Shown one piece after another: positions 8,095 through 28,470 of a stretch of 64,000 nt of DNA. The notes beneath the pieces are model-generated. The model made no database searches and had not been told where the DNA came from. It saw nothing but the letters and a program-made list of their open reading frames with translations. Where the stretch lies: positions 1 through 64,000 of IMG/VR virus record IMGVR_UViG_3300017783_000003; one strand, 5' to 3'. This DNA comes from a virus. The position numbers and the translations under genes are program-made. How positions within the stretch are numbered: the stretch's first letter is position 1; every line of letters begins with the position of its first letter.

Positions 8095-8317
8095 GTTTAT
8101 GACCGCTGCGAAATTTTCGCAGGAAGTTGAACAGATTGCATTTGATAATTCTATGAACTATATTGATGCCATTGTACACTACTGTGAAACAAATGAGATT
8201 GAAATTGAATCAGTACCTAAGTTAATTAGCAAACCACTTAAGGAAAAACTTAAGTATGATGCACAAAAACTTAATTACATTAAAAAAACAACTAGAGCTA
8301 AACTAATGCTAGTATGA
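8072..8317 (+). CDS. 33: Late-transcription accessory protein gp33
   Basis: 81 residues aligning by eye to the C-terminal two thirds of T4 gp33: VEQIAFDNSMNYIDAIVHYC corresponds to the T4 segment with EKMVEEFGMSYLEA, and KLISKPLKEKLKYDAQKLN to the T4 FIPSGIIEKIQSEA region. gp33 links the late sigma factor gp55, the RNA polymerase flap and the sliding clamp. The hydrophobic-acidic clamp-binding C-terminal tail of T4 gp33 is not evident here (ends KLMLV). Start 8072 overlaps the nuclease by 23 bases; ATG 8099 is a good alternative. Confidence 0.75.
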   Translation: MAKNLEDKFMTAAKFSQEVEQIAFDNSMNYIDAIVHYCETNEIEIESVPKLISKPLKEKLKYDAQKLNYIKKTTRAKLMLV

Positions 8318-8655
8318 ACGAGTTTTTTAAATCCGAAATGGTTCGTGGTAACATCCAAGAGATGGCTGCCATGCAAGAATTTTGTATGAAATCTATGGTT
8401 GCATTTCCAGTGCTAACACCAGAGAAAAAATTAGATTATTTTAATGTTCTCATGTCTCTCATTGAGAAACAAAAGATTTTTTATGCAAGATTAACACTTA
8501 GTGATGATGAAGAAGCAGTCAGTATGGCAGCTTCTATGAAAGACGCTGCTGTCTTGCTTGGTGCTGAACCAGGCGATGACCTTAACGAAATGTTTGATTC
8601 GTTATTAGTGCGTGTTAAAGCAATGATTGACCAACTAGAAGCAGAAGAGGGTTGA
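8314..8655 (+). CDS. DUF1825-like cyanobacterial-type protein
   Basis: 113 residues, ATGA-coupled to gp33. FFKSEMVRGNIQEMAAMQEF, LTPEKKLDYFNVLMSLIEKQ and KIFYARLTLSDDEEA follow the pattern of cyanobacterial DUF1825 proteins, with a phage-specific C-terminal helix. Probably acquired from a cyanobacterium. Function unknown. The gp32 promoter overlaps its last codons. Confidence 0.7.
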   Translation: MNEFFKSEMVRGNIQEMAAMQEFCMKSMVAFPVLTPEKKLDYFNVLMSLIEKQKIFYARLTLSDDEEAVSMAASMKDAAVLLGAEPGDDLNEMFDSLLVRVKAMIDQLEAEEG

Positions 8656-8680
8656 CACTCACCCCACCATCTGCTATAAT
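8652..8680 (+). promoter_or_regulatory. Strong sigma70-type promoter of gp32
   Basis: Perfect TTGACA (8652-8657), 17 bp, perfect TATAAT (8675-8680). The -35 box overlaps the stop codon of the preceding gene. Predicted transcription start at about 8687. Confidence 0.92.
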
Positions 8681-8686
8681 AACTTC

Positions 8687-8756
8687 GTTGGGCTGCACAG
8701 TATTAAGCGTAAGACCCAACACTTAAACAAAATCCAATTAAATCCGAATAAATCCT
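8687..8756 (+). promoter_or_regulatory. gp32 mRNA leader with predicted pseudoknot and AAATCC repeats
   Basis: 70-base untranslated leader. GTTGGG (8687-8692) pairs with CCCAAC (8715-8720). TTAAG in the loop (8703-8707) can pair with CTTAA just downstream (8722-8726), giving an H-type pseudoknot. The rest up to the ATG is G-poor and holds three AAATCC repeats, likely unstructured. T4 gp32 represses its own translation by nucleating on a 5' pseudoknot and coating an unstructured leader; this leader has the same design. No Shine-Dalgarno sequence is obvious. Confidence 0.6.
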
Positions 8757-9659
8757 ATGTCTTTTGCAGATCTTAAGCGCAAGTCCCAGAACAACATGGA
8801 GTTCCTTCAAAAGGAACTACAGAAGTCCAGCAACGCAGGTAGCGGTGCCGACGAGAGACTCTGGAAACCCGAACTTGACGCTTCTGGAAATGGATACGCT
8901 GTTATCCGTTTCCTCCCTGCCCCTGAAGGAGAGACACTCCCTTGGGCAAAACTGTACTCCCACGCCTTCCAAGGTCCTGGTGGTTGGTACATTGAGAACT
9001 CTTTGACCACTATCAACGAGAAAGATCCCGTTGGTGAGGTCAACCGTCGTCTATGGAACAGCGGCAGTGATGCAGATAAAGAAACTGCACGTAAGCAGAA
9101 GCGTAAACTCTCTTACTACAGCAACATCTTGGTTGTAAAAGACCCCAAGCATCCCGAGAATGAGGGCAAAGTATTCCTTTACAAGTATGGTAAGAAGATC
9201 CACGACAAAGTACTTGCAGCAATGCAACCTGAGTTTGAAGACGAGACTCCTATCAATGTCTTTGATTTCTGGGAAGGTGCTAACTTCAAGATCAAGATCA
9301 AAACTGTTGGTGGATACTGGAACTATGATTCGTCTGAGTTTTCAGAACCTACTGCTGTCAGTTCTGATGATACTGTCATGGAAGAAACGTGGAAGCAAGA
9401 ATACTCTCTTGCTGCATTCACCAATGCAGACCAATTCAAGTCCTATGCTGACCTGGAAAAGCGTCTGAACATGGTGCTTGGCATCAATCAACGTTCTGCT
9501 GTTCTTACAGTAGACAGCGAAGAGTATGAACCCGCTCCTGTTGCTGCTAGTGGTGGGTTTAACGATCCCGACATCACTACCTTCCGTGAGAAGGTGAGTA
9601 GCAATGCATCGGAAGATGATGATGCTCTGTCCTACTTCGCAAAACTTGCTGAAGAGTGA
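8757..9659 (+). CDS. 32: Single-stranded DNA-binding protein gp32
   Basis: 300 residues (T4: 301). Basic N-terminus (MSFADLKRKSQNNMEFLQKE, cooperative self-binding B domain), central OB-fold core and an acidic C-terminal tail (SEDDDALSYFAKLAEE) for partner recruitment. The T4 zinc-binding Cys are absent: the corresponding ENSLTTINEKDPVGEVN has no Cys. Coats ssDNA during replication, repair and recombination and is expected to regulate its own mRNA. Own promoter and own terminator, so monocistronic. Confidence 0.95.
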   Translation: MSFADLKRKSQNNMEFLQKELQKSSNAGSGADERLWKPELDASGNGYAVIRFLPAPEGETLPWAKLYSHAFQGPGGWYIENSLTTINEKDPVGEVNRRLWNSGSDADKETARKQKRKLSYYSNILVVKDPKHPENEGKVFLYKYGKKIHDKVLAAMQPEFEDETPINVFDFWEGANFKIKIKTVGGYWNYDSSEFSEPTAVSSDDTVMEETWKQEYSLAAFTNADQFKSYADLEKRLNMVLGINQRSAVLTVDSEEYEPAPVAASGGFNDPDITTFREKVSSNASEDDDALSYFAKLAEE

Positions 9660-9720: not shown

Positions 9721-9753
9721 AAAAAAGTTGAGGGGGTAAAACCCCTCTTTTTT
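9721..9753. terminator. Bidirectional terminator between gp32 and the minus-strand tail operon
   Basis: GAGGGG (9730-9735), loop GTAAAA, CCCCTC (9742-9747), then six T on the plus strand. On the minus strand the same hairpin is followed after three bases by six T (plus-strand A-run 9721-9726). Serves both convergent units. Confidence 0.9.
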
Positions 9754-9931
9754 ATTGTCCTGCTGCTTCTGCTTTTTGTTTCTCTTCTTGAATATATTGC
9801 TTAAGAAGAGCAATATAAACTTCACGCTCCCATGGCATCATATTTTCAATCTCAGTGAGAGAATATTTATGATATTGCATTAAAGCGAAGTTTGTTTTAT
9901 AATAGCCCTCCAGACTGTTCTGGAAGACCAT
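9752..9931 (-). CDS. Small tail/baseplate assembly ORF downstream of gp26 (gp51 position)
   Basis: 59 residues, MVFQNSLEGYYKTNFALMQY at the start, then YSLTEIENMMPWEREVYIALL and a Gln/Glu/Lys/Ala-rich tail. Its ATG overlaps the gp26 stop (TAATG). It is at the place of T4 gene 51 but is far shorter than T4 gp51 (249 aa). It is in the -1 frame relative to gp26, just after a T_TTT_TTC heptamer, which recalls the lambda G/GT pair of tail-assembly chaperones. It may be made alone, as a frameshift fusion, or both. Confidence 0.75.
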   Translation of the reverse strand: MVFQNSLEGYYKTNFALMQYHKYSLTEIENMMPWEREVYIALLKQYIQEEKQKAEAAGQ

Positions 9932-26604: not shown

Positions 26605-26689
26605 GCGAGTGTGGTGAAATTGGTAAACACACCAGACTTAAAATCTGTCGGATGTAACGTCCTTGCGGGTTCAAGTCCCGCCACTCGTA
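26605..26689 (+). tRNA. tRNA-Leu (UAA)
   Basis: 85-nt class II tRNA. Acceptor GCGAGTG / CACTCGT with a G-U end pair and A73, anticodon loop CTTAAAA giving UAA, long variable arm, T-arm GCGGG TTCAAGT CCCGC. No encoded CCA. Its 3' end is one base before the next ATG, so RNase processing would trim the mRNA to a nearly leaderless 5' end. Confidence 0.95.
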
Positions 26690-28090: not shown

Positions 28091-28171
28091 GCCCAAGTGG
28101 TGGAATGGTAGACACGCAAGTCTTAGGAACTTGTGTCGAAAGACGTGAAGGTTCGAGTCCTTTCTTGGGCA
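28091..28171 (+). tRNA. tRNA-Leu (UAG)
   Basis: 81-nt class II tRNA. Acceptor GCCCAAG / CTTGGGC with A73, anticodon stem CAAGT / ACTTG with loop CTTAGGA giving UAG, variable arm around TGTCGAAAGACG, T-arm AAGG TTCGAGT CCTT. No encoded CCA. Confidence 0.93.
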
Positions 28172-28398: not shown

Positions 28399-28470
28399 TC
28401 CCAAGTAGCTCAGTGGCAGAGCCGCCGACTGTTAATCGGCTGGTCGCTGGTTCAAATCCAGCCTTGGGAG
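28399..28470 (+). tRNA. tRNA-Asn (GUU)
   Basis: 72-nt tRNA. Acceptor TCCCAAG / CTTGGGA with G73, anticodon stem CCGAC/ATCGG region with GTT, T-arm GCTGG TTCAAAT CCAGC. No encoded CCA. Third tRNA of the island. Confidence 0.95.

Follow-up and report, generated by a model that had tools for sequence, protein, structure and literature searches.

The DNA analysed here (the window, a 64,000-nucleotide stretch of a 116.8-kb viral record) contains a gene for the single-strand DNA-binding protein gp32, preceded by a sigma-70 type promoter whose -35 box overlaps the stop codon of an upstream DUF1825 gene (table 1). From the position of this promoter, the gp32 mRNA is predicted to start near G8687. A terminator-like hairpin 3' of the gene suggests that gp32 forms its own transcription unit. 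The protein matched T4/RB69-type gp32 structures (E 1e-48 to 1e-52), and its residues 7-10 read KRKS, close to the N terminus and similar to the LAST motif, which underlies the cooperativity of T4 gp32 (PMC12424627). Judging from its sequence, gp32 combines a homologous core with an N-terminal LAST-like motif of the cooperative type. In the structure-match alignment, the zinc cysteines of T4/RB69 (CPVC) aligned with gp32 residues that include no cysteine.

Table 1. Features of the gp32 locus and of related sequences. Positions refer to the window unless a contig is named.
Feature	Position	Strand	Basis
DUF1825 gene	8314-8655		
Sigma-70 type promoter, TTGACA-17-TATAAT	8652..8680	+	12/12 consensus match, extended -10 (TGC)
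-35 box TTGACA; -10 box TATAAT	8652-8657; 8675-8680		
P motif	8687..8720	+	P1 covariation, covariance-model matches
P1 stem GUUGGG/CCCAAC	8687-8692/8715-8720		
P motif interior	C8693, U8694		
P2	G8695-C8708, C8696-G8707		
Apical loop ACAGUAUUAA	8697-8706		
GUAAGA	8709-8714		
Stem 2 (TTAAG/CTTAA), rejected as a conserved element	8703..8726 (8703-8707/8722-8726)	+	not conserved
G-poor, weakly folding leader with AAATCC repeats, up to the start codon	8721..8756	+	composition, folding, repeats
AAATCC repeats	8730-8735, 8740-8745, 8750-8755		
gp32, single-strand DNA-binding protein, 300 aa	8757..9659	+	phrog_224 E 2.4e-125; PF08804 E 1.6e-47
Terminator-like hairpin GAGGGGGTAAAACCCCTC and T run	9730..9757 (hairpin 9730-9747)	+	consensus match only
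Three tRNA genes	26605-26689, 28091-28171, 28399-28470		Rfam RF00005
manA RNA in five other contigs	L018:107-306, L021:1277-1476, L023:1220-1422, L028:1223-1425, L034:1266-1467		RF01745, 159-170 bits

A folded motif at the predicted 5' end

The first 34 nt of the predicted transcript would fold into a stem (P1), an asymmetric GUAAGA internal loop and a short second stem (P2), an arrangement that we call the P motif and whose general order is P1-C[A/U]-P2-apical loop-GUAAGA-P1'. Relatives were retrieved by the loop core GCACAGTANTNAGCGTAAGA alone, with P1 unconstrained, which yielded 87 viral stretches. P1 of at least 4 bp was present in 46/46 distinct loop-core contexts, and of at least 5 bp in 45/46. 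Because every context has P1 although the search pattern left it untouched, we regard the motif as real. At one pair of P1 all of CG, UA, GC and AU were seen, and two-sided changes occurred in 47 cells compared with 15.3 in shuffled alignments, none of 500 shuffles reaching 47. On this comparative evidence, stem 1, which the preliminary description had already drawn as GTTGGG paired with CCCAAC, is a real conserved stem, well beyond chance. Covariance model R1 scored the site at 57.6 bits, its sole match in the window and in the whole record, and the independent model R2, built on a long type of the motif, found the same site (E 3.2e-5). The long type keeps P1, C-A and CGUAAGA but encloses a 7-bp inner hairpin, whose loop is of the GAGA type and whose pairs covary too (two-sided changes at 5/7). 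Since the model of one type finds the other, the short and long types form one family, and a core reading GCACAGUAYUNAGCGUAAGA was near-invariant across different genes and stems.

No covariance model of Rfam 15 matched the hairpin. At gathering thresholds the window gave tRNAs only and no match to manA RNA (RF01745), and nothing relevant appeared at E up to 10. In 257 Gb of bacterial and host genomes the core had one exact match, in a Coriobacteriales MAG and without P1, a yield at or below chance. Extra copies of the motif in four records (14 bits) look like chance matches within protein-coding sequence, and a likeness of the loop to a GNRA receptor, judged by eye, was unsupported. The 3' half of the hairpin (8698-8718) also resembles the start of the gp32 coding sequence (8767-8789; AAGCG[T/C]AAG..CCCA), where this stretch codes for the conserved LKRKSQ; the likeness is probably a coincidence of codon choice.

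The preliminary description had further proposed that the loop bases TTAAG pair with CTTAA to give an H-type pseudoknot, which would nucleate gp32 as in T4. All four segments lie exactly where it had placed them, and the complement is indeed present in the window; among 21 distinct gp32 leaders of the same hairpin type, however, it occurs in the window only. Stem 2 was kept in 0/20 of the others, three of which retain the loop TTAAG but not its partner, and its central pair (alignment pair 21-38) was broken in 13/16 rows. In shuffles of a 22-nt loop and a 12-nt flank, a 5-bp complement arose by chance in 7.5% of cases with Watson-Crick pairs and in 12.5% with G-U pairs allowed. Stem 2 also conflicts with P2 at G8707, and the loops of such a pseudoknot would measure 10, 7 and 1 nt, in contrast to the compact fold of T4. 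A test set in advance, covariation in both stems, thus came out strongly for stem 1, while stem 2 was not conserved. As judged from these alignments, TTAAG/CTTAA is a chance match and no pseudoknot is supported, which makes nucleation of gp32 on such a fold very improbable. An alternative loop-flank pairing, GCGU/ACGU, was seen in only about half of the leaders and partly overlaps P1, and was not kept.

Exchange of the 5' element and its occurrence before other genes

The relatives comprised 80 gp32 loci fetched by protein similarity, and hence unbiased for the leader, others fetched by leader patterns, and named phages. A promoter matching at least 9/12 consensus positions was present in 64/72 distinct similarity-fetched gp32 leaders (window counted); the predicted +1 was almost always GU, and the predicted transcript leader varied in length from 32 to 122 nt. 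Sorting 77 distinct leaders by 5' element gave 29 with plain hairpins, 23 with no room for one (32-42 nt UTR), eight with the P motif, two with large elements, seven with none detected and eight without a promoter by the rule used, five of which have manA RNA. Hairpins at the predicted +1 were found in 29/36 leaders, compared with 8.7 ± 2.2 after shuffling. Upstream of the repeat leader there may therefore be nothing, a plain hairpin, the P motif or manA RNA. Plain hairpins of the kind found in S-PM2 and S-RSM4, phages in which the P motif had no match, occupy the same +1 place and precede the same leader, but have a 4-6 bp stem and lack the GUAAGA internal loop and the conserved apical loop.

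Among named phages the P motif occurs once per genome, before gp32, as the short type in Syn1, S-RIM44, S-CAM4 and ACG-2014e/i/j and as the long type in Sf-FR1 and S-8S53, and before gp32 it recurs across many cyanophage clades. On the gp32 tree it is scattered among close relatives with a plain hairpin, and a single origin was rejected, the starred branches forcing at least 11 changes; this is a quick tree with loose 'plain hairpin' labels, recombination may separate a leader from its gp32, and the added P motif loci were pattern-fetched, two of the pattern scans having fixed parts of the motif.

In five cyanophage contigs, gp32 and its AAATCC leader are immediately preceded by manA RNA, which occupies the place that the P motif takes in the window. 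This orphan motif of cyanophages, a riboswitch candidate (PMC2864571), is about 200 nt long and differently folded, and the P motif of the window does not match it. The parts of the literature available on manA RNA do not mention a gp32 context.

Other arrangements were seen at particular loci. In L108 (4286-4530) and L095 (10264-10500), a tRNA-Asp gene has become joined to the gp32 promoter immediately 5' of its -10 box and replaces the -35 region; L108 has a second, degenerate copy of promoter and P motif before the tRNA, suggestive of a duplication around the inserted tRNA. About 120 nt before gp32 (locus start codon at 1501), L011 and L026 have another structured element of about 70 nt, CUGGG...CCACG-ACUUAGAAG-CGUGG...CCCAG, which is flanked by a 5' hairpin on one side and by the gp32 leader on the other and has no Rfam match at gathering. 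In some gp32 leaders (L279, L280, L043, L049, L053, L055 and L070), a T4-late-like CTAAATA stands next to TTGAC, which suggests that an early and a late promoter overlap there.

The P motif was also found, in uncultivated T4-like phages, ahead of small ORFs unrelated to gp32; the stems there differ, two motifs sometimes stand in tandem, and the distance to the start codon is 22-40 nt. These non-gp32 motifs are followed by a linker with a median of 36 nt and 4% G, and in one such phage the gp32 leader has repeats and no P motif. Occurrence before other genes argues for a general 5' module rather than a specificity determinant. In this sample the 5' element is both exchangeable and dispensable, and the hairpin does not qualify as an operator common to all gp32 genes, because many relatives lack a 5' structure and the P motif also precedes unrelated genes. 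The tandem elements (L134:1518-1595, L137, L143, L152 and L166) stand before an ORF of about 30 aa; the upstream one is a 24-nt-loop variant, CUGGGCACGUUAGC[GA][UA][UA]GCAUCGGUAAG[UA]CCCAG, five bases 5' of the standard motif. Many non-gp32 motifs (L124-L164) are followed by ORFs for short proteins (about 30-47 aa) that share the pattern GN[TG]G[DEN]EILQILD, and the one searched against Pfam had no match.

The G-poor repeat leader

The best-conserved part of the gp32 5' region was the G-poor leader of about 36 nt, whose repeats persisted in 73 distinct gp32 leaders even as the fold 5' of them was exchanged or disappeared. The three AAATCC repeats of the window, correctly recorded in the preliminary description, have an exact 10-nt period; the leader has no GGAG-like Shine-Dalgarno sequence, and no stable pairs were predicted for 8721-8754. 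The window has a single triple repeat, at gp32 (mean of 0.47 in shuffled windows), and the strict pattern AAATCCNANTNAATCC, present in three genomes, was confined to gp32 in each.

In the relatives, leaders contained 8.9% G, with AAT[C/A][C/T] repeats at about -26, -16 and -6 relative to the gp32 start. Spacing was 10 nt (63) or 9 nt (26) in 89/107 cases, and 11 nt in two. AAT[CA]C occurred 1.96 times per leader versus 0.46 after shuffling (68 distinct leaders), AATCC 1.44 versus 0.29 times, and repeats of one leader shared their unit type (AATCC or AATAC) in 143/163 pairs, against 109 ± 4.6 in shuffles, although the leaders are related, so the shuffles overstate significance. Among 22 leaders less than 80% alike, autocorrelation peaked at lags of 5-6, 9-10 and 15. 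The 36-nt leaders folded weakly, with a mean of -0.65 kcal/mol; the mean for the 32 upstream regions taken for comparison, gp32's own among them, was -2.3.

A candidate landing track for gp32

Control of gp32 through its leader is already known as such. In T4, gp32 nucleates on a pseudoknot, polymerises over UUAAA repeats and blocks translation (PMC535899, PMC3014915), in an operator laid out as a structure followed by the repeats (PMC535899). Like the T4/T2/RB69 operator, the cyanophage leader has a structure at its 5' end and about 36-40 nt of unstructured repeats running into the start of a homologous gp32, and unlike it, it has no conserved pseudoknot and is unrelated in sequence. The repeats are AAATCC at a period of about 10 nt, as against UUAAA at about 5 nt, and the 5' end is predicted to be set by a promoter, whereas the T4-type operator is processed by RNase E at -71. 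Of the features of a T4-type operator, the repeat leader into the ribosome-binding region is present here and the pseudoknot and a zinc-binding gp32 are not. The T4-like logic claimed in the preliminary description therefore held for the repeat-bearing, unstructured leader, with its 9-10-nt period and matching units, and failed for the pseudoknot. The gene 32 leader of the T4-like phage RB49 is likewise reported to lack a pseudoknot; its UUAA units are disputed, being kept according to PMC535899 while no A+U-rich sequence is present according to PMC3014915, whereas the cyanophage leaders retain clear repeats.

The reading that we prefer, at a probability of roughly one half, is that gp32 assembles on the leader repeats and thereby represses translation of its own mRNA, the 5' cap being exchangeable and no pseudoknot being involved. 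A single-gene transcript would begin at about 8687 with the P motif, and the next 36 nt would stay single-stranded, presenting AAATCC units about 10 nt apart up to the start codon. When gp32 exceeds the available single-stranded DNA, protomers would bind this leader in register, about one per repeat, and would cooperatively cover the ribosome-binding region, so that translation is repressed; the 5' element would mark or stabilise the 5' end and may help loading. A repeat period of about 10 nt is near the site size of T4 gp32 (7-8 nt; 7 ± 1 in PMC5892887, 8 ± 2 nt in PMC12424627), KRKS is kept, and the T4 operator is laid out alike. Against this reading, the T4 zinc cysteines are not conserved, and the P motif with a bare G-poor leader also precedes unrelated genes and so need not mean gp32 control. 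The literature searched held no binding, footprint or repression data on a cyanophage gp32.

Alternatively, a scarcity of G can do no more than make a leader easier to translate. Without any autoregulation, the repeats could act as an enhancer through ribosome standby or S1-type binding, the 5' hairpin only guarding the mRNA from 5'-end-dependent decay and both serving high gp32 output. Such an explanation would fit the same layout before unrelated small genes, the interchange of the P motif with plain hairpins of varied sequence, and the unusual stability of T4 gene 32 mRNA (PMC3014915), but a generic enhancer needs neither a 9-10-nt period nor matching units within a leader, and gp32 was the only site of AAATCC repeats (in the window, and in genomes with the strict pattern); we consider it unlikely, if well worth keeping in mind. 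Still less probable is that the P motif works independently of gp32, either sensing a signal by itself in the manner of a riboswitch or binding another phage or host factor, and so places gp32 under common control with several small phage genes. Its near-invariant core, its place shortly before unrelated start codons and the presence of the riboswitch candidate manA RNA at the same site in other phages would suit that role; yet there is usually one motif per genome, in named phages it stands nowhere but at gp32, the long type replaces the apical part with a GAGA-capped hairpin, and close relatives have a plain hairpin in its stead. We give hardly any weight to repeats that act in DNA, as a phased protein-binding or bending site just 3' of the promoter: their period is close to one helical turn, but spacings of 11 nt are almost never seen, and the repeats are fixed relative to the start codon while the transcript leader varies.

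Returning to assembly of gp32 on the repeats, conserved autogenous control of gp32 in cyanophages is plausible from the sequences compared. More tentatively, and with the odds somewhat against it, the P motif may define a hitherto undescribed family of short, folded cis-acting RNAs of marine T4-like phages, serving as a 5' module that plugs in ahead of gp32 and of several small genes and that, at gp32, can be swapped with plain hairpins and manA RNA. All would feed the same landing track, so that autogenous control would outlive replacement of the structured part. We found no description of the P motif, or of a pseudoknot-free, repeat-phased layout with swapped 5' modules, in a literature search that fell short of most subscription papers. 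A 2010 review called for work on gp32 autocontrol in diverse T4-related phages (PMC3014915). For these abundant marine phages, the repeat leader shared by the 73 distinct gp32 leaders is now identified as the thing to test, and the analysis adds an RNA motif absent from Rfam and places the orphan manA RNA before gp32.
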